A DNA stretch of 64,000 nt, from positions 14,074,001-14,138,000 of the forward strand of contig NC_003284.9 of the NCBI RefSeq assembly GCF_000002985.6. Direction: 5' to 3'. This DNA is from Caenorhabditis elegans (taxonomy: Eukaryota > Nematoda > Chromadorea > Rhabditida > Rhabditidae). Positions 11,409-23,041 of this stretch are shown here, piece by piece; positions within the stretch are counted from its first letter, which is position 1; every line of letters begins with the position of its first letter. Position numbers and translations under genes: made by a program. The notes beneath the pieces are model-generated. The model had not been told where the DNA came from. It ran no database searches and was given only the letters and a program-made list of their open reading frames with translations.

Positions 11409-14400
11409 ATGTGTGAGTTCGAAATTATTGTAACCAGTAACAATCTGAATGCCTCTTTTGATAACATTTAGCTGATTACAGTTTATAGCCAACATAATTG
11501 TATTCAGGGATTTTTTGTGTCTTTCTAATTCCAATCATCACACATGCAATTGATAGTTCAAATGATGACATGGACTATGAAATCAAGAAAGGCAATTGTA
11601 CCTGTGAAGAAGAAGTTTATGAGGCAACTATCGAACATGGAATCATCAAATCACCTCACTACCCGAATTCACAAAGTTGCGATGGAAGATGTGTCTACAT
11701 TGTTAGTAAATTAGAGAATGTGATTGGAGTTAATAAATGTTAACTAGCTATAGATACTTCCACATCCCAACAAAACCGTTTCTCTTTACACATCGTCGTT
11801 TGAAATCTCCAGTCGGGCAAGTCTCATCGTTTACAGTCTGCTCGAGGAAAATGGTGAAAGAATTCGTATTCCGCATGCAAAGTAAGTTGTATCTTGTTTT
11901 AAATTAGAATAATAATTCAATAAAAATTAATTAAGCTCATTATTTTTTAAACTGCCTGTGAAAGGAGACCTATGTTCAGTTTCCTGCAATATATAATTGA
12001 AAAATACATGCTTGTGGGATCATCGTGAGATCAATTAGTCATATTGAGAATGCAAAAAAAAGAAACAATGAAAAAATTATGTTCCGTACAACAAAATTCT
12101 GTGCAAAACAGAACACGGCCAAGATATGAGAGTAGAGTTTTAAAGGAATTCGGTCTGCGTATAAGGGAATATCTTTTATACATTCGTTATAGATTTTAAT
12201 GTAGAAAGTTAAACCGAAAAAAGCGAAGATCCCATGTCAAACTGTCCCATTTTTATGTAATCTACAAAAAATGCGGTAATTTTTTGCATAGAAAAATGTG
12301 GCGTCAGCACGCTCTTAACCATACAAAATCTTGTGAGAAGTCTGCGTCTAAGTTTCCGGATTTTTGGTAGATCACACGGAATTGGGACATTTTGACGCCA
12401 TGTCAGATTTCACAAATAGGAGATACTATTTAATGGCAAAAACTGGATATCATACTATTAGAAAAAAGGTGTTTTTGATGCATAATGTTTCGATTTGAGT
12501 GTTAATAAAATTATGACACAGAAAATCAAATTTATTAACGCTAATTGATTTTTCTCAGAATTCGCCGACCGGAAAACTATTTCTACTCTTTTAGTGAAAT
12601 GTCGTTCCCGAGCTTTGTTTCGGCAAAAAATGCTGGGTTTGAAGTGCATTTTATAAGTCACAGAATGACTCATTTTACCAGCTTCAAAATTTCGTTTGAT
12701 CGAAACTACGGTACCTTTAAACTTGATGTCTGTGATACTTAATTTTATGACGTTTCAGAATATGACGAAGTTTGCGGTTATCCTATTGTAGACATAGGAA
12801 TGGATGAGACCCTGGTGCAACTTGACCATGCGTTTCGAGCAGCTTCAGGTTCAGTGATAAAAGTGTTGTTGGCTTTTGTAGATTTAATTATATATGTATA
12901 TGTTGAACTTAAATTTGAATTAATTTATTTTTAGGTTGTGTCTTCATGCTGCGTCCAAAATACCCAGATCTTGACGAAGAAGATGAAATGGTTATAAACA
13001 TAGGCTACAGCATAGAAACTATTGCTTCCATAAGAACACGCGATGAGAATGGAAAACTTACATTTGGACAGCTGTGAGAAAAAAAAATTTAAAAAAGAAA
13101 ATTTGAAAATCACTTCATATTCTTCAGAACTAGTGGGCCCCGTTCGGTAGTGACAAGTGCTCATTTTGTTCAAATTATTTCCCACAAAACAGAGAGGACA
13201 AATGGACTGTACAAAATGGAGAAGATCACAGCAAAAATAATCAAAAGAGGTTATTTCTAATCAGAAATGTATAATGAAAATTTGAAAAAATATATACATT
13301 TGACAAAACATGCATCAACGAAACTTAAACAGCAGTTTTCAAAAAGTTTAAAAATAAATTCCAGGATGTGACTGTGGCGCGGGCGAATTTCTCATTGGTA
13401 ATAACAATCAAACATCTGTTTCAATACATTCACCCGGCTGGCCAGACTTGTATTGCCCACAACGAAACTGCAAGTACTCCATTAAACCCTTCAATTCTGG
13501 GGTTGATAATGACAAAATGGCAATTTTTGAAGTTCACGTTAAAGCGATTATTGGTACTGGTGATAGTTTCACCATTGCTCATTCGGATGAACTTATCAGG
13601 CAGGATTCGATTTTTTTTTCTTAATTTTTGACACTTTTTTTGTTAAGATCTGTAGCGTACAAAGAGGTTGCTGAGCATTATGATACAACGTTTGTTGTTA
13701 AACAACAAACTCTCTTAATATCCTATCAGTCCGAGGATAAATACTATCGGCGATTTTTTGAAGTAAATGTGACTCAGAAAATGATAGATCCCGGTATGCA
13801 AAACATCATTTTCGTTGGCGATTATACATAAAGCTGAATTTTTCAGATTGTTCCTGTAACTTTTTCAATGATAAGACTTTTAGCAGTGAGGGAAAAATGT
13901 TGAACCTCTCTTTCCCAGCACATTGTGCCTATATTTATTGTCACTTCCAATTCAAGGATTCCGTAAGTATTTGTTTCTGATTAAGTTTTTAATATCAAAT
14001 GTCAAAAAAATTAAAGGAAAGATTTATTTTCAATCTCACGAGTCCCGTTTGAGTATCTTTATTCACACAAAATTTTTGATATATTTTTTTAATGCCTGGA
14101 CTAAAAAAAAAAGTAAAAAAAACTTTCACGTGTCAATTAAAATTTAAATATTGAGTGTGAAACGTAGAAAAATTGTAATAAAACGAAAGCCATAATTGCA
14201 GAGACAAAGTCAGATTCATGTAGTTTTCTTTTACCATACAGATGTGCAGTAAAAGTACTCATAAGTTTTGTTTCTCTTAAAATGGTAGGTTAGGAAGGCT
14301 AGGTAGGATAGGCAGGCTATGAAGGCTAGGTAGTCTAGGTAGGCTAAGTAGGCTAGGTAGGCTAAATAGGCTAGGTAGGCTAGGCAGGCTATGCAGGTTA

Positions 14401-15696
14401 GGCAGGCTAGGTAGGCTAGGTAGGCTAGGTAGGCTGGGTAGGCTAGGTAGGCTTGGTAGGCTAGGTAGGCTAGGTAGGTTAGGTAGGCTCGAAAATCATA
14501 AATACCGCGGTAAAAATAGGTATTTCTTTCAATTCAGCGTTCTTATTCTCCTGGATCTGTTCTCGATTTTCAACTAAAGGGAGCTGTGGAAGGGGACAAA
14601 GTGATTATTAAAGATGCACGTCATGAGGAAACGTAGATGATTCAGGCAAACATGCAAACGTTCAAATAAGGATTTTGCAGATACCAGAGCACTCAACTCA
14701 ATCGTATGAATCGTTATGATGTATTCAAGGAATCTGAATTTACATTCTATAGGAAACATTTACCGTCGGAGGGAAATGTAGAGGTATTTGTCAACTGGAC
14801 ATTGACTAAATCTGGTTAGTTTTCAAAGTAAACTTTTTGTTTCAACTTTTCAAAAACAAGTGTTTTAACATTCAATTTATTGACAGGAGGATCTTGTTTA
14901 TCGCTAATGAAACTTTCGGTTGATGTTGACAAACCGTTGATTATTATAAGTCCAAGATATCCAAGTGAATATGCAAACAACGAGAAGTGTAAATTTTTAA
15001 TTCTTGCGCCTGATCAGTGAGCTACTGGATTGCGGTAAAGCTTAACAAAAATATATTTTCTAGTTGTCGTTTAACTTTGAGTATTGATGAGATCAGCTTG
15101 GAGAATTTTCATGATTTCGTTTTCATATACGATGGGAATAGCACCGATGGAAAATTGATTAAGAGGCAAGCTTCTAGTGTTTTTGAACAGTTGGAAAATA
15201 ATCTTGAATCTTAGATTTTTCTACCATTTGATAGGGTCATTAAATATAACGTATTTCTAAATTAAAAAAAACAATCTTTGTTTTAGATATACCTCTCATA
15301 TAACCCACGAGGTCCTGAATATCTCATCGTCTTCTGTTCTCATAATGTTTCAAACCGATCAGAGTATTAGTGACCGAGGATTTCATATCACAGCAACTGC
15401 CCATTATCTACGAGACTTATATGATGGAGATAATTCACTCACATATGCACTCATTGCTCTTGCCCTCGTTTTCATTATTGCAATTTTGCTGGTGATATAT
15501 GTCTACGAAAAGTACCTTGCGAAAGATGCTCCTCGCATTGCAATTGCACACGGGGCAGGTGGTGGAGATAATTTTGAGTAAGGTTTTTTTGGAAATTTAA
15601 AATTATATTACTGTACTGTGAAAATAGTATGTACTTTGTGATTTCAGAGCGGCAAGGGACGAAAGAAATTTGGGAAGAGATCATACTGCACTCTAA
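11409..15696 (+). CDS. Multi-CUB-domain single-pass membrane protein
   Basis: Sixteen exons: 11409-11412, 11508-11701, 11754-11881, 12559-12710, 12759-12848, 12935-13073, 13128-13249, 13365-13599, 13648-13793, 13847-13962, 14538-14632, 14681-14814, 14887-15016, 15064-15165, 15287-15577 and 15648-15696, encoding 708 residues. The 4-nt first exon (ATG plus T) gives the signal peptide MWIFCVFLIPIITHA. About five CUB-like units follow (for example GIIKSPHYPNSQSCDGRCVY, SIHSPGWPDLYCPQRNCKY, IIISPRYPSEYANNEKCKF). After these come a membrane helix (ALIALALVFIIAILLVIYVY) and a cytoplasmic tail of about 40 residues. CUB units mediate extracellular protein contacts. Each unit carries a phase-2 intron at an equivalent place, and two of these (after 13599 and 15165) use GC donors. 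The first exon is the least certain part. Poly(A) signal near 15740. Confidence 0.82.
12233..12402. mobile_element. Inverted-repeat MITE in a CUB-gene intron
   Basis: Left arm (12233-12276, CATGTCAAACTGTCCCATTT...) and right arm (12356-12402, ...GGGACATTTTGACGCCATG) are imperfect reverse complements of about 45 bp, with a central segment of about 80 bp. It lies in intron 3 of the CUB gene. Non-autonomous DNA element inferred from structure. Confidence 0.6.
14285..14489 (+). repeat. 9-bp minisatellite, unit AGGCTAGGT
   Basis: About 21 imperfect tandem copies of AGGCTAGGT with point variants (AGGCTAAGT, AGGCTATGC, AGGTTAGGC), inside intron 10 of the CUB gene. Confidence 0.93.
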
Positions 15697-16388
15697 TTTT
15701 GAAAACATTTTTGGTAAATTGCAAATAACTTGTACTACAAATAAAAGTTATTTCATTTTTCAAATAACGTTTTATGTGAAGAAAACATAGGCTTTGAAAC
15801 TCTTGCTTAAAAATTCAGACATTAGTTTTAACCACTCTTTCTTCTATCTTACTCGCGCACCTACAGTCAAACAACAGGTGTTGTACATTTTTTTAAAATG
15901 AAATTTCAATAAAGTAAAAAGTAATGGAATAAATGAAAGGTGCGTAAATTTACACTGTGAAAACACCTGACACCGGTGTCACGTCATAAAAGCGGTAAGA
16001 ATGCATGTGGCAGACACTTGCTCTTAAAAAAGTACCGACCGATTATGGAACATACAGAGTAATATAGGAAAAAGAAAACATGATTAATAAATATGCAACA
16101 ATATTACGGTAAATTTAATTTTACGTGCAATAGATTATAATTGAAAGTATGGGGATGTACCACATAAGTACCTTTTTCAAACAATTTTTTGTCCAAAATT
16201 TATTCTTGCAAAAATCTCTTCCACGTTCATTTTTGGGTTTTTGATTGCCAATGACCAAGCGGACAGCTGCGTCTGTTCGGTGTAGGTAGCCATGTCAGAG
16301 AAACACTTTGCAGTCCCTGGTCATTTTTCATCCCGCCGTGAGTGTTTTCTTCACTTCTGTTCTCTTCTTCCAGCTTTAGCAAAATACT
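15697..16388. other. Intergenic between CUB and DSL genes
   Basis: Contains the CUB-gene poly(A) site and the presumed promoter of the DSL gene. No gene or repeat recognised. Confidence 0.45.
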
Positions 16389-19300
16389 ATGAGTCTTCTC
16401 CTATTGTTTCTTTTCAATGTTTTCATTAATGTGCGTACGCATGGAAACACGGAAATTCGAATACAATCGGGAATCTCAGTTTATGTCAGAGTGCACTTTT
16501 GCACTTACTCCACGCGGTGTTCTTCACCTTTATGGAAGAACATAATACCTTTTGAAGTAATACCAGAGTTTCCTTTTGTATTTGAAGAGTATTTCACTAG
16601 GCCCACTCTGCCAAACGTCATATTTACCATTAGCATATATGATATTAATGATGAGGGTAAGCTCTGCTACATATTTCAAGGTATACATAGTATTGTCAGT
16701 TAAGAAACGGTTCAAAACTGCTAATTTAATGCTAGAATGTGAAGCAACTTTTGAAAGTTTCTTATTTACATACAGTCAAAAATGGCAATTTTGAAAAATA
16801 GGCTCAGTACCTAAACTTCGACTTTGAAAAATGTTCAAATGTTGGATGTTTAAGTATGGTATTTCATTCTGTTATTTTACAGAGCCGCTGGGATTGGAAC
16901 AAATTGTCGTACCCCTGACACGGCATTTTTCAAATTTTACAGTACATACAAAAAACGATTCATTTCTACATTTTGCTGTGAGAAATGTCTGTGATGAGTA
17001 GGCTCAAACATGTTAGCTATTCAAATTTTCTAATTTACAGAAATTGGAGAACACATTCGTGTTCTATATTTTGCAAAGACAGATCGGATTCCAAATTTAA
17101 ATGTGACGATGATGATGGATACAAGTGTGCGCCTGGGTATAGTGGGCCGAATTGCGATAAAGGTTCGAATACAAAACCCCGAATGAAAACTGTATAATAC
17201 TTTTTCAGTAGATTGTCCGTTCAACTGTCATAATCATGGGAGCTGTGAAGTTCCTGGAAAATGTATGTGTTCTCAAGGTTTTTTCGGAACGTACTGTGAA
17301 TATTGCAAGCCTTCAACTACTTGTAAACATGGTGCAGTGTTAGTAAATGAACTTGGGTGCCATCCTTACACTTGTCGCTGTTTTGAAGGATACGCTGGAG
17401 ATAATGGCGACAAAGGTAAGTAATATTGGTTTTCAAAAAAAAGATAAAACCTGAGAATTTACAGTAATTTGCAACAGAACAAAAATAGAACGGCGAGAGA
17501 AATTAAATTTGTCCAGACAAAAAACAAAATAAGTTTTGTTTTTCAAACATGTAACATTTGTCTTTCAGATGACGTTTGCTATTATGCAAAACCATGCCGA
17601 CATGGAAATTGCGTATCCAATGTTACAGTTTCTGGAGGATTTGAGTGTATATGCCCCAAAGCTTTTGGTGGCCGACGATGTGAAAAAAGAATAGCACGAT
17701 GGGATTGCAGTGATGAAGGTTATTGTCAAAACAGTGAGGGTTTATTTTATTTTAATAGCATCTGTTTAATCGTTCAGTATATTCACCTAATGATTTTATG
17801 CTTAAACTAAATGTTCATTTTCAGAAGGAGTATGCTCATTCGTTGATGGTATTAGCAGATGTAGATGTGCAGTTGGTTTTACAGGAAAGCATTGTGAAAG
17901 GAAAACTGCAAAAACGTGTTTGAAAAAGAAATGTCGGGAGGGATTTATATGTATAATAGACAACAAAAAAACAGGAACAATGCCTTGCTTCAATTACTCC
18001 AAAACCTCGTCTCCGTCGGGATCTCATGCCCGAAGAACTTTCTCAACTTCGTGAGTCCAGGAAGTTCTGTTATGAAGAAAACATGAAGGCCGGCAAGTCA
18101 GTTTACATTATGAAAGATATCGGGTACACGAAAAACCCCAAACCTAGGGATTTTTATGCAGCTCAACCTACTGCTCTCTAAATTCTCATCCATTTTCTCG
18201 CTCTACCACCCAAACCAATAGTCCAATCTTGAATTGTTCTTATTCTTCTTCATCTTCCCCTCTCTCTACCTCATTACCGGTATGTTCGACTGACAAGATT
18301 GTTTTACATACTTTAAAATTCTCTCTGGCAAATGTTAGAGGTGTGTCTGTTTTGCCTAAAATAATCATGCTTAAAGAATTCTTCTCCTCTTCTGACATAG
18401 ACATCCTTCTACTTACGGAAACATTTTTAAACAGCTCAGTTCCAACTAGCCTCTTCTCTACCGCAAACATATCCTTCATTAGATTAGATCGTAACACTGA
18501 GCTTCATTCTAAAGTGTCTGGAGGCGGGATTGTCATAATGCACAAGTCCTCCATTAACGTATCTCTTCGAGATATTAATCTCGAAAAGCACTATCCCAAA
18601 CATCGCTGCGAAATCCTTGCAGTCGATATTTTATCTTCAGATCCCTCTCATCCCCCATTAACTATAGTCCTTATTTATAGACCTCCTTGTTGTTCGGCCG
18701 CTGAAAACATTGCACTTTGCACACATCTTGAAGCCTATATCCCCCTCTCCAATATTATTCTCACTGGGGATCTCAATTTTGCTTTAATCGAATGGTCAAA
18801 TAACACTACATCAACGCATCCCTTTTCCCTTTTTCTAAGCTCTAACAACCTTTCACAAAAAGTTAGGTTTCCCACGCGTATCTCTAGAACTTCCAGTAAC
18901 ATCCTTGACCTAGTTACTTGCTCTCCCGACGTATCCGTTCTTGACCTCTCCCCACGTCCTGCCGTTTTAAACTCTGACCATCTTTCGGTAGAGTTCAAAA
19001 TCCCACTTCATCCATCCTATCATAAACCAATAATAGGAGTTTCTTCCCAACCCGCCACCCCCACTAAAATTTTTGACTACAAAAAATGCAATTTTCCTCT
19101 ACTCAACTCTGACCTTTCTCGCGTTAATTGGGATTGGGAATTCAGCGCTTTCAAAACGGTTTCCGAAAAATATGAGCATCTTCTTACTATCCTAGAAAAT
19201 CTCTTGACATTACACTGCCCCACAAAATCTCCCAATTTAGGCACTTCTTCAGCACCAGCTTCCAATTTACTTCGCAAATTAAAACGACTGAGAAAAAAGA

Positions 19301-21490
19301 CCAACAAGCTCCTTCTCTCTAGAAATTCCCCTTTTGAAACTATAAAAAATGCCCAAGTCAAATATCGAAAACTCTACCGCCAATACAGAAAATCAGTAAG
19401 GTGTTTTGAAAATGATATAATTAACAACTCAAACTTTTCCAAAGTAAGGCGTCTCATCAATAGCCGCCTCAAAATACAAGAAAAAGTTCCAGCTATTCTC
19501 GTTGACAATAAACCGATTGTCAATGATTCCGATATAAGCGAAGTATTTGCCAAAATCTTTGCCTCTCAATTCTCGCCTGAGGGCAACCTGTCTCCCAACA
19601 TTATAGACCGATCTCTTTGACTGACCCATTTGCTCGGATTATGGAACGCATCATTTGTTCTCGTATCCGCTCTGAATACTCTCATCTGCTCTCTCCCCAT
19701 CAGCATGGGTTCCTCAACTTCAGAAGTTGCCCTTCCTCTCTAGTGCTCCATCTCACTTTATCACTCGATCCTCAAAAATGAAAAATCTCTCGACATTCTC
19801 TTTTTTGACTTTGCGAAAGCATTTGATAAAGTATCTCACCCAATCCTCCTAAAAAAAACTTGCCCTGTTTGGACTAGACAAACTTACATGCTCTTGGTTC
19901 AAGGAATTCCTGCACCTCAGAACGTTTTCAGTTAAAATCAATAAATTTGTCTCAAGTAATGCTTACCCCATTTCCTCAGGCGTCCCCCAGGGCTCCGTGT
20001 CTGGCCCCCTTCTCTTTATACTATTTATAAATGACTTGTTGATCGACCTCGAACCTGATATCCACGTCTCATGCTTTGCGGACGATATAAAAATTTTCCA
20101 TCATAATCCCTCTACGCTCCAAAATTCGATTGACACTATAGTCAAATGGTCAAAGAAAAACAAACTTCCTCTTGCCCCTGCCAAATCTTCTGTCCTCTCT
20201 CTTGGATCCCGTAACTCCAACCACACGTATAGAGTGGATAATGTCCCCATTCTTCCATCCTCCACAGTCCGCGATTTAGGTCTTATCACAGATTTTAAAT
20301 TAAACTTTGAACCTCATTTTATAAAAATTAGCTGCCTAGCCATGCTAAGGGCTAAGCAAATTCTCAAAGCGTTCTACTCTAACTCCCACAAGTTTTATAG
20401 CCACTTATTTAAAACATACGTTGCCCCCATCATAAACTATTGCTCTGAGATCTACTCCCCTTCCCCCAACTCCTCACTCTCTGCCATACTTGAAAAACCG
20501 CTTAGGACCTTCACCAAACGCGTCCTGCAAAGGTGCAACGTTAAATTCACCTCTTACGAAAACAGACTGTGCATCATGGAACTATTCTCCACCAGACACA
20601 TTAGAATTAAAGCTCAAATGAAACTATTATATAGACTTCTTACTGGTTCTACTCATTTCTCTAAATTAACTCAGTTTGTCAAGTTCTCTAATTCCAATAG
20701 GAGACCCATGATGCTGGTTAGGAAAGACACATGCACCTCTCATTTCTTTGCCAAATCCATTCCTATTTGGAACAATCTTGTCAAAAATATACCGGTATTT
20801 CTCTCCCCCTATCAGTTTTCAAACTTTCTCGATCTCAATATTCCCCGGTATTAACTTTTATCCGCTGGTTCTCTTTGACTTCTAATTGATCTCTTCTACC
20901 ACATTACCCTCTCTCTCCTTTCCCGTCCCAAACTCGAGACGTACTTTTTCTGAGTTAGTCTCGTTTTACCGTTTTATTTAACACTCAAAATTCAATTGTA
21001 CAATTGTAAATTGCATTAGTTATGTTAAATAAATCAATCAATCAACAAACGCCCTTTGTGTGTTAACAGTATCACCCCTGGTCCGTTTGTTACAATAACG
21101 TCGCAGACGCAGTATAAAATTTATTACGGGTAAGTTAATGGTTTTATTTTGAATTTTAATAGTTTTGAGATATTGAAAATATTAACTTTTCCGATAGTTT
21201 TCATGATAATCAGATCATAACACCGTCGTCGATAGTACAAAATGATTGTCTCAAATTTTAAGAATATATCACTGGAAAGTCAAAAACTCAAAAATAAATC
21301 TGCTTCAGTCTACGTCGCAAGCTGTGAATGAAACTTCTACAAAAATTTACTATGTACAGACACCACCTGAAGGTAACATGTATACTAGTAAGCAAAATTA
21401 ACAACACGATAATTTTCAGAAGTTTATCCGTTTGAAGTAGACGGTGAAACAGAAATCGATGATGGAAACGAAACCGAGCCTGAGGAATGA
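16389..21490 (+). CDS. DSL/EGF Notch-ligand-like protein, one coding exon split by a LINE
   Basis: Exons: 16389-16656, 16883-16997, 17041-17162, 17209-17415, 17569-17739, 17825-about 17984, [LINE], about 21055-21129, 21198-21234, 21309-21372 and 21420-21490. Without the LINE these would encode about 429 residues in one frame. The product starts with a signal peptide (MSLLLLFLFNVFINVRTHG). A MNNL-like region follows (to about residue 125), then a DSL domain (NWRTHSCSIFCKDR ... GYKCAPGYSGPNCDK) and about four EGF-like units with regular Cys spacing. It ends in a Ser/Thr-rich acidic tail. No membrane helix is visible, so a secreted DSL ligand is likely. DSL proteins bind LIN-12/GLP-1 (Notch) receptors. 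The reading frame enters the LINE at ...DNKKTGTMP and reaches a stop soon after. The gene may therefore be a pseudogene, or may splice around the insertion. All downstream exons keep frame and splice sites. Confidence 0.75.
18229..19620 (+). pseudogene. LINE ORF2 N-terminal part: AP endonuclease domain
   Basis: 463 open residues. Endonuclease motifs appear in order: NVRG near the start, LLLTETFL (catalytic Glu), VLIYRPP, ILTGDLNF (Asp/Asn pair) and VLNSDHLSVEF (SDH). All key residues are present. The frame ends at TGA 19618-19620, just where fingers of the reverse transcriptase should begin, and the sequence resumes in the middle of the RT. This implies an internal deletion plus frameshift. 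Confidence 0.85.
19621..20854 (+). pseudogene. LINE ORF2 C-terminal part: reverse transcriptase, frameshifted
   Basis: RT motifs are readable across frames: ARIMERII and LSPHQHGF, then DFAKAFDKV (first catalytic Asp), SGVPQGSVSGPLLFILFINDL, and CFADDIKIF (the FADD active site). At least one frameshift lies between about 19700 and 19997; 19997-20854 is open for 285 residues including the thumb-like C-terminal region. The domain between the endonuclease and RT motif 1 is largely missing. Not capable of autonomous transposition. Confidence 0.82.
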
Positions 21491-22390
21491 ATGGTAAACA
21501 TTAATTATTGAACTTTTTTGTTATGTGTAACTGTTATTTCTAATAAAACCCTGCAAATTTTGAATTGAAACTATAATTAAAAAGTTTACAAACAAGTGCG
21601 GCAGATGTTTGTTTCTAGAAAAAATTCATACAAATATCACAAAAAACTACTTATTTAATTGGTATACGCTTCAAAAATCCATGGCAATATATGATACTTT
21701 TCAAAACCTTTTGTGTCCGTCCTGAAAAAATTGAACATTTTATGTCAACACTTTATTAAAGAAAAAATGCAATAGACACATTATGACAATTTTTGAAGAA
21801 CAGACAAAAGCGTGATGACTCTTCTACAGGGTCAGGATAGTTTTCTACTACATAATGAGGGGGTGCAGAACAATTAACTATTACTTGGTGATCACTACTA
21901 GTTAAACGGAATGATTTGGATCGAAATCCCAGTTTATAAAAAAATATCACTTTTTGATTGTGAGTTTAAACACGAAAAAGAATGAATTGCATGGGAGAAG
22001 TAGATAAATGAAAATATGAATGACGTCACGAGGCTTGAATTGAAACGTTACAAATTAGCTATCGAAGTGATTAAAAATATTTTTAGCAATTCGAGATCGG
22101 TTTTTAAACTAAGCAATTATTGCACATAGTTCAATCCCGTTAGAAAAAGGAATGTTGAAAAAAACGGCTCTAGTTTTGCAAATCGGAAAGATGTGTGGCC
22201 AAGTCGATTTCCTTGTAGTTGCGCGGCTGTTTGCACGCGTCGATCTCCTTATTACGTTTTCTCTTATGGCTTTTTTTGACATGATGAGATCTGGAAATAT
22301 ATATTTGTTTTATTCGAATTGTTTTTTTAAATGTTTTCTTAATTTCTTTTCATTTGGGGTAATAGTCAAAATGTAGTTTTTGTTGGCCAT
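21491..22390. other. Intergenic, no gene seen
   Basis: AT-rich, with the DSL gene 3' end near 21545 (AATAAA). I see a possible alternative terminal exon for the minus-strand gene at about 21715-21725 but cannot support it. Confidence 0.4.
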
Positions 22391-23041
22391 AAAGGTAGTG
22401 TAGCGCCAGTGGGGATTTTGTCTAAATCAGGGGTGTGCGGCAAATTTGCCGATTTGCCGAAAATTGCCGACTTGCCGAGCTCGGCAATTTTCAAAAAAGT
22501 AGATTTGCCGAATTTGCCGAGCTCGGCAAATTTCGAAATTTGCCGCACACGTCAAAAATTTGACAGTACAATTTTGATTAAAACTATTGATTTTTTAGCC
22601 AAAAATTTAGTAAAATGACACGAAATTGAGCTATTTTGATGCTTAAACAGACATACTACGCGGAACTTATTCAGAAACCAGATGTGTGTTAAGAATTCAG
22701 TAGTTTTGGTGCTCCAAAAAACATAAAAAATATCAAATTTTTCCGAGTTTGTTAAGCACGGCGAATTTGCCGAATTTGCCGAATTTGCCGAGCTCGGCAA
22801 ATTTTGAAAAACCAGCAATTGCCGATTTGCCGAGCTCGGCAATTTTTTCCATTTGCCGCACACCCCTGGTCTAAATACACTTATAATGATACAAAATGAC
22901 CAAATATCATAATAAAACATTAAAGTATAAAAAATGTAGGAAACATTTTTTGGTAGACTTCTAAAATCATGAGTTGTTGCGAAAACTGAGTAACTGTCAC
23001 TTTTTGTTATCACGATATCCACTGGCACTACTGCACCTTTA
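22391..23041. mobile_element. Outer MITE with AAAGGTAGTGTAGCGCCAGTGG terminal inverted repeats
   Basis: Left end AAAGGTAGTGTAGCGCCAGTGG (22391-22412) and right end CCACTGGCACTACTGCACCTTT (23019-23040) are imperfect inverted repeats. The same terminus occurs at 1-77. It contains a second, younger element at 22428-22868. Confidence 0.7.
22428..22868. mobile_element. Non-autonomous hAT-like MITE of TTTGCCGA repeats with 8-bp target duplication
   Basis: The ends are perfect inverted repeats: CAGGGGTGTGCGGCAAAT at the left and ATTTGCCGCACACCCCTG at the right. They are flanked on both sides by GTCTAAAT (22420-22427 and 22869-22876), an 8-bp target-site duplication. The interior is built of short GAATTTGCCGAGCTCGGCAA inverted motifs. 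8-bp duplications and CAGGGG termini are hallmarks of the hAT superfamily (established); the class assignment is inference. Confidence 0.8.

Follow-up and report, generated by a model that had tools for sequence, protein, structure and literature searches.

A 5'-truncated LINE in coding exon 6 of a DSL/EGF gene, probably dsl-4, of Caenorhabditis elegans

What becomes of a Notch-ligand-like gene when a retroelement lies inside its coding sequence in the reference strain? The question is raised by a locus in a stretch of 64,000 nucleotides of C. elegans DNA (NC_003284.9, positions 14,074,001 to 14,138,000), hereafter the window. An earlier note had placed a LINE inside a coding exon of a DSL gene, and this holds true: endonuclease and reverse transcriptase domains are found in the insert, and DSL and EGF domains in the conceptual product (Table 1). 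The favored reading, to which a probability of roughly two-thirds is given, is that the LINE interrupts exon 6 of a secreted-type DSL/EGF gene and that reading through into it yields a truncated product of 368 aa.

Table 1. Features of the locus (positions in the window).
Feature	Positions	Strand	Remarks
Exon 1	16389..16656	+	start codon; frame open to donor GTAAGC, exon 2 entered in phase 1
Exon 2	16883..16997	+	TTTACAG acceptor; phase 1 in, 2 out
Exon 3, DSL domain	17041..17162	+	PF01414; phase fits
Exon 4, EGF repeats	17209..17415	+	PF00008, PF07974; phase fits
Exon 5, EGF repeat	17569..17733	+	phase fits; EGF matches to Notch and Delta chains
Exon 6, segment 5' of the insertion	17825..17967	+	TTTTCAG acceptor, phase 1
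CAACAAA, 5' copy of direct repeat	17961..17967	+	sequence
LINE, 5'-truncated, TCAA-repeat 3' end	17968..21045	+	boundaries uncertain by a few bases (shared letters)
LINE ORF1, C-terminal piece (frame of 17960)	17966..18181	+	five relatives, 53-67% protein identity, from residue 3 or 5
First in-frame stop on reading into LINE	18052..18054	+	conceptual translation, 368 aa
LINE ORF2, endonuclease part	18148..19620	+	PF14529 1.2e-12, PF03372 7.2e-8; frame ends at 19620
Internal deletion point	19591..19599	+	309 bp of chromosome V copy (L067) absent; 8 bp shared at breakpoint
LINE reverse transcriptase part, another frame	19853..20854	+	PF00078 3.2e-19, profile positions 96-194 of 205
CAACAAA, 3' copy of direct repeat	21043..21049	+	sequence
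Exon 6, 3' part	21050..21129	+	donor GGGTAAGTT at 21130, phase 2 out; in frame when flanks joined
Exon 7, if the TTTTAAG acceptor is used	21263..21372	+	frame; alternative start 21309 (GCTTCAG) out of frame with the 21130 donor
Exon 8, stop TGA	21420..21490	+	TTTTCAG acceptor; frame
AATAAA, candidate poly(A) signal	21542..21547	+	word found 10 times in this stretch vs 8.8 expected, no commoner than chance

The interrupted gene

The gene shares with the other DSL genes of C. elegans, ten in number according to PMC6071610, a hydrophobic start, a DSL domain and EGF repeats. Its N terminus, encoded by exon 1, is signal-like, with a hydropathy peak of 1.35 over 19 residues. In the conceptual protein the Pfam DSL domain PF01414 scores 27.6 bits (cut-off 24.2) and is followed by EGF repeats that all exceed their cut-offs (PF00008, 28.0 bits; PF07974, 25.1; PF23106, 29.8). 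The five introns upstream of the insertion have compatible phases, open frames and usable splice sites, and the 5' part of exon 6 encodes an EGF repeat, after which another cysteine-rich stretch begins. We infer that this is probably dsl-4. A DSL-4 protein record, NP_001359594.1, exists (cited in PMC11162419), and the gene model behind it may differ from the exons given here.

The gene also differs from the DSL genes of C. elegans in general. Its PF01414 score in a scan of the genome (27.1, against the cut-off of 24.2) is the lowest of 12 DSL matches, and the domain lacks at its start the aromatic-(x)-G-x-x-C stretch, reading NWRTHSC instead. This stretch, a common pattern in this genome and not a formal requirement of the DSL family, is present in 10 of the 12 matches; the other exception, L083, has a match that begins later in the DSL profile. 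Judged from sequence, the missing stretch would be a sign of divergence that lowers confidence in ligand function, not in the domain call.

The LINE copy, its junctions and its age

The insert is a non-LTR element of about 3.08 kb, which we take, from its 3' repeat and layout, to belong to the CR1/L2-like clade; its family is presumably that of the LINE2/CR1-type elements of C. elegans. With these it has in common an endonuclease and a reverse transcriptase, 5' truncation and a 3' end made of TCAA repeats. LINE2/CR1-type elements are present as many truncated copies genome-wide. The inserted LINE extends further 5' than the other copies at least 97% identical that were found, the longest of which starts at the equivalent of 18746. 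LINE2C is named among C. elegans elements in PMC5850821. The 309-bp segment missing at the internal deletion point is found complete in L067 and in part in L068, L069 and L070, so that the deletion is common to none of these four.

The junctions had been placed at 17984 and 21055 in the earlier note; they have been moved to near 17967/17968 and 21045/21046. The EGF frame had been thought to reach 17984, and this was rejected, since LINE ORF1 relatives align across 17966-17984; "KKTGTMP" is LINE ORF1 sequence in another frame. The 5' start of the LINE was placed at approximately 17966-17968 by ORF1 relatives from the genome aligned to the frame starting at 17960 (L038 and L043 were left out of this comparison). 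Four of the 16 non-self ORF1 matches align from residue 3, one from residue 5, and 11 from residues 9-18. At the DNA level, the relative that was found matches only from 18005 on, and the assignment of 17966-18005 to the LINE is suggested by protein similarity only. At the other side, comparison with other copies places the 3' end at 21045 or a few bases away: the copies begin at many different points, and most of them share an end at the equivalent of 21041-21049 (L067, L016, L021, L023 and L070 are among the exceptions).

The insert is flanked by a direct repeat, CAACAAA, which is a probable target-site duplication of 7 bp. A repeat of this length is short and expected by chance in 1-2% of cases: a shared word of at least 7 letters turned up in 246 of 20000 draws when the 3' junction was compared with random 20-mers from the window, and in 461 of 20000 when random pairs were compared; the flanking repeats of other LINE copies, read by eye, are variable or unclear. 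When the insert and one copy of the repeat are removed, exon 6 reads through in frame, and the joined flanks (...CIIDNK|RPLCVNSITPGP...) are open up to a strong donor; 21050-21129 is thus in frame with 17825-17967, as had been claimed. The target-site-like repeat, the restoration of the frame on joining the flanks and the existence of near-identical copies elsewhere together support insertion of the LINE into a coding exon. The element, 5'-truncated within ORF1, would have entered exon 6 presumably by target-primed reverse transcription, duplicating some 7 bp of target, and the empty site would read ...ATAGACAACAAACGCCC...

The inserted LINE diverges by 1.3-1.6% from seven close copies and carries 9 private substitutions in 1394 sites, corresponding to an age of some 3.5 million generations (1.6-6.7 million) at 1.8e-9 substitutions per site per generation, a rate derived from PMC8727991. 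Over that time about 1.7 substitutions and 0.54 indels are expected in the 261 bp of downstream coding sequence, and the chance that this segment has acquired neither an indel nor a nonsense change is about 0.54, if 5% of substitutions are assumed to be nonsense and 0.32 indels occur per substitution (PMC8727991). Because so few disabling changes are expected, intact downstream exons say little on age, and their decay was rejected as a clock. The youth of the insertion had been argued from these undecayed exons; the argument fails for want of time for decay, and also because their phases depend on a non-consensus acceptor.

The lost tail, the predicted product and competing readings

Downstream of the LINE, the phases are less than "perfect", as they had been called. 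After the donor at 21130, only one of 11 AG acceptors tested leaves the frame open to the final stop, namely the non-consensus TTTTAAG, with an exon start at 21263. The GCTTCAG acceptor before 21309 requires phase 0; it is out of frame with the donor, which is in phase 2, and meets a stop, and splicing exon 6 past exon 7 also runs into a stop. Nor does the same EGF repeat resume beyond the LINE: the joined piece has no Pfam EGF match above cut-off, and sub-threshold EGF matches end before the junction. A follistatin-like module across the junction, proposed from cysteine spacing, was rejected: it found support neither in Pfam nor in PDB sequence matches, which, among the 60 of 87 listed, all end at or before query residue 85, and the junction follows residue 89. 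For the tail itself Pfam gave no match above cut-off, and a search of the genome for paralogues of the tail that might fix its native structure found none.

Translation would enter the LINE outside the ORF1 frame and stop after 28 LINE-derived codons. The most likely product, of 368 aa, would keep the hydrophobic start, the DSL domain and the EGF repeats, and would lack the remaining 86 residues of a presumed original of 426 aa; these have no evident transmembrane segment, and neither version of the C terminus, truncated or original, contains a transmembrane-like stretch, a further difference from the DSL genes of C. elegans in general. The mRNA would end in a 3' untranslated region of great length, and nonsense-mediated decay may remove part of it. 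In an aldicarb test, at least 10 dsl-4(ok1020) animals were scored as wild type (PMC6071610), which fits an allele already weakened and, equally, ordinary redundancy. Because the insertion lies downstream of the hydrophobic start, the DSL domain and all the EGF repeats, a truncated secreted-type protein is just as possible as the "recent null allele" that had been proposed.

Removal of the LINE, or most of it, as an intron, with production of a nearly full-length protein, is an unlikely alternative to this truncated product. In one version, exon 6 would extend by 83 LINE bases to a GTGAGT donor at 18051 and be spliced to a TTAACAG acceptor before 21070, which would restore the ITPGP frame and add about 28 LINE-coded residues (447 aa). 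This splice is open on paper, and the donor overlaps the read-through stop, so that its use would remove that stop. It is one of 46 combinations, among 16 donors and 22 acceptors, that would remove the LINE in frame, but with that many, chance would be expected to supply one that is open. By a crude consensus score it reaches 10 of 17 (the best of the 46, 11); its donor scores 5 of 10, where the gene's own range over 5-8, and its acceptor 5 of 7, where the gene's own score 6-7. The TTTTAAG acceptor would still be needed downstream. It is rather unlikely that the 83 bases of LINE ORF1, in a frame other than that of ORF1, now encode part of a still-working Notch-ligand-like gene, either as 28 codons, up to 18054, that form a new C terminus or as an insert from the 18051-to-21070 splice that keeps the old tail.

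The gene might instead be an effective pseudogene in this strain, its transcripts absent or destroyed and its downstream exons already drifted, as the phase break between exons 6 and 7 could indicate. This reading, which is distinctly unlikely, draws on the mismatch between the 21130 donor and the GCTTCAG acceptor, on the weakest DSL match of the genome with its missing aromatic stretch, and on the deletion allele dsl-4(ok1020), which was scored as wild type in one assay (PMC6071610). Yet the exons before the insertion have open frames and usable splice sites, use of the TTTTAAG acceptor does away with the phase break, and the DSL motif may have diverged before the LINE arrived, a divergence that does not by itself imply lost function. 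That the downstream exons belong to another transcript, the DSL gene having always ended near the insertion and the LINE having inserted into a 3' UTR or intergenic DNA, is very improbable. The tail's lack of a Pfam match and of a second copy in the genome would be compatible with it, but a single open frame runs through both flanks across the junction to a good donor, and an exon follows that has a TTTTCAG acceptor and closes with a stop.

Comparison with other insertions in C. elegans genes

The locus, with a truncated product as the favored outcome, is an instance, approximately dated and open to test, in which a signalling gene of a redundant family tolerates a transposon in its coding sequence. 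Should the gene be dsl-4, the reference form of one of the worm's ten DSL ligands would be without its native C terminus, and the allele of the laboratory 'wild type' would already be interrupted, so that comparisons of deletions with it may understate the gene's role. In a literature search no paper turned up that brings together a LINE retrotransposon, a coding exon, wild strains and a pseudogene in C. elegans, nor one that names the clone gene.

Among transposon insertions in protein-coding genes of wild C. elegans, 240 of 2246 were reported to lie in coding sequence, and redundant homologues were invoked for those in genes with lethal RNAi phenotypes (PMC5850821). The insertions described there are absent from the reference, whereas the LINE of the DSL gene is present in it. 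Another parallel is provided by Cer1 in plg-1 of strain N2, where likewise a retroelement disrupts a gene in the reference strain; that insertion is polymorphic among wild strains (PMC3315495; PMC5850821). Unlike the truncated LINE in the DSL gene, which is a clear example of a well-known type of damage, Cer1 belongs to the LTR elements, and its phenotype is known.

Identity and structure of the DSL gene

The contig carrying the interrupted DSL/EGF Notch-ligand-like gene is presumably chromosome X, and the gene is probably dsl-4 (clone name F16B12.2). Entry phases of exons 2 to 6 are 1, 2, 1, 1 and 1, the coding content up to the insertion amounts to 340 aa, and the product has DSL (PF01414) and EGF matches, both above cut-off. 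A profile scan of the genome for the DSL domain yielded 12 matches. Three lie on the same contig as the window, whose own match is the weakest of the 12 (27.1 bits). The domain (17041-17162) has NWRTHSC in place of the aromatic-(x)-G-x-x-C stretch found in 10 of the 12 matches; the second match devoid of this stretch begins later in the profile. Its absence may reflect weak constraint independent of the LINE.

Coordinates of the exons preceding the insertion and of the repeat flanking it
Feature	Position	Strand	Basis
DSL gene exon 1	16389-16656	+	in-frame joining
DSL gene exon 2	16883-16997	+	in-frame joining
DSL gene exon 3	17041-17162	+	in-frame joining
DSL gene exon 4	17209-17415	+	in-frame joining
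DSL gene exon 5	17569-17733	+	in-frame joining
DSL gene exon 6, up to the insertion	17825-17967	+	in-frame joining
CAACAAA, flanking direct repeat	17961-17967 and 21043-21049	+	sequence

Another gene on the + strand (12700-15710, extent judged by eye) ends about 0.7 kb upstream of the DSL gene; it has a hydrophobic stretch close to its end and sub-threshold CUB matches (17.9 bits in both ORFs tested; cut-off 21.4). An apparent intron of this gene contains some 200 bp of AGGTAGGCT-like 9-bp tandem units (14287-14498). On the other side, a repeat with many TTGCCGA/TCGGCAA words (22423-22873) resembles a foldback or MITE-like element. Its inverted arms measure 70 nt (74%) and 38 nt (76%; TAAATCAGGGGTGTGCGGCAA.../...TTGCCGCACACCCCTGGTCTA).

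Boundaries and age of the LINE

The earlier note had placed the 5' break at about 17984, which proved too far downstream: the frame from 17960 encodes the C-terminal end of the LINE ORF1, and relatives align across that point. Of 17 genome matches to this frame, including the window itself, the others start at query residue 3 (four), 5 (one) or 9-18 (eleven), and in all four ORF1 relatives followed (L039-L042) the ORF runs on upstream beyond the point at which the window changes to exon sequence of the DSL gene. The element thus starts at about 17966-17968, a boundary set by protein evidence, the DNA-level match to the relative found beginning only at 18005 (76%). At the 3' end, most near copies finish at the equivalent of 21041-21049, most commonly 21045; L067 (on chromosome V), L016, L021, L023 and L070 end earlier. 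Words of at least 7 bases were common to the 3' junction and random window 20-mers in 246/20000 cases, and were shared by random pairs in 461/20000. Removal of 3082 bp (the insert and one repeat) joins the flanks as ...TGT ATA ATA GAC AAC AAA CGC CCT TTG TGT..., open up to the 21130 donor. With junctions bounded by relatives and joined flanks open in frame, the proposal of a LINE within a coding exon of the DSL gene is borne out: the transposon interruption in the reference genome is real and its boundaries are well set. At another locus (L017, G000:C4:7253142-7256476), two same-strand copies of the LINE 3' end lie near each other, each followed by the same stretch of about 40 bp, which would point either to a local tandem duplication or to a target duplication of unusual length.

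The endonuclease and reverse transcriptase domains of the window copy lie in different frames. Relative to L067, it lacks 309 bp at 19598/19599, at a breakpoint with 8 bases in common. L067 contains the entire segment; beside the breakpoint, L068 has 100 bp of it, L069 has 105 bp and L070 has 202 bp. As each retains it wholly or partly, none of the four carries the deletion. Eight LINE sequences were compared over 19599-21045, setting aside a ninth copy, L069, which is about 5% diverged. Private substitutions in the seven others range from 0.38 to 0.93%; the window copy has 9 of them in 1394 sites, along with 3 private indels. At 1.8e-9 per site per generation, derived from a reported 4.22e-8 described as about 23x wild type (PMC8727991), this gives a rough age of 3.5 million generations (Poisson range 1.6-6.7 million), rough in both directions since the private count may include changes of the source element and may miss sites where other copies vary.

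Product and downstream exons

Read-through into the element meets a stop at 18052-18054, giving a conceptual product of 368 aa (340 of its own and 28 LINE-derived) that retains all recognised domains; the loss from a presumed 426-aa original is 86 residues. No transmembrane-like stretch was found in the present or joined tail (peak 19-residue hydropathy 0.14 and 0.52; N terminus, 1.35), and the insertion therefore appears to have shortened a protein of secreted type. As premature-stop transcripts are degraded by NMD in C. elegans (PMC2768976), a lower mRNA level of the interrupted gene is plausible. Splicing over the LINE, for example from 18051 to 21070, is possible on paper, but that pair is among 46 open combinations of 16 donors and 22 acceptors, so that any single open one is weak evidence.

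Downstream exons had been described as intact with perfect phases, which was not confirmed. Exon 6 ends at 21129 in phase 2, and only one of 11 AG acceptors tested (exon starts 21135 to 21360), TTTTAAG with its exon start at 21263, leaves a frame open to the stop at 21490 and yields the 426-aa product; the GCTTCAG acceptor before 21309 and skipping of exon 7 both run into stops. The C. elegans acceptor motif UUUUCAG/R is reported to be strongly conserved (PMC4889670); TTTTAAG has one mismatch to UUUUCAG and GCTTCAG two. Either this part is intact with an unusual acceptor or it is already indel-shifted. The lack of decay, earlier regarded as informative, says little about gene function, because unconstrained sequence would have escaped any indel or nonsense change since insertion with a chance of about 0.54. 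By eye, the end of exon 6 (21097-21129, ITSQTQYKIYYG) and exon 7 (21309-21356, STSQAVNETSTKIYYVQ) are alike, possibly through an old exon duplication.

Relation to known insertions

A literature search, with most subscription text, supplements and the worm gene database outside its reach, found no report of a LINE in this DSL gene; the insertion may well be annotated already. For dsl-4, the ok1020 allele is described as wild type in aldicarb response (PMC6071610), and the protein record is given as NP_001359594.1 (PMC11162419). In N2, plg-1 is disrupted by Cer1, an insertion that is polymorphic among wild strains (PMC3315495). A survey of 152 wild strains counted 2246 insertions in protein-coding genes, 240 of them within coding sequence, and retrotransposons made up 17 of the 241 reference sites missing in some strain (PMC5850821). 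The interruption is ordinary in kind, and of modest interest to users of the reference strain as wild type.
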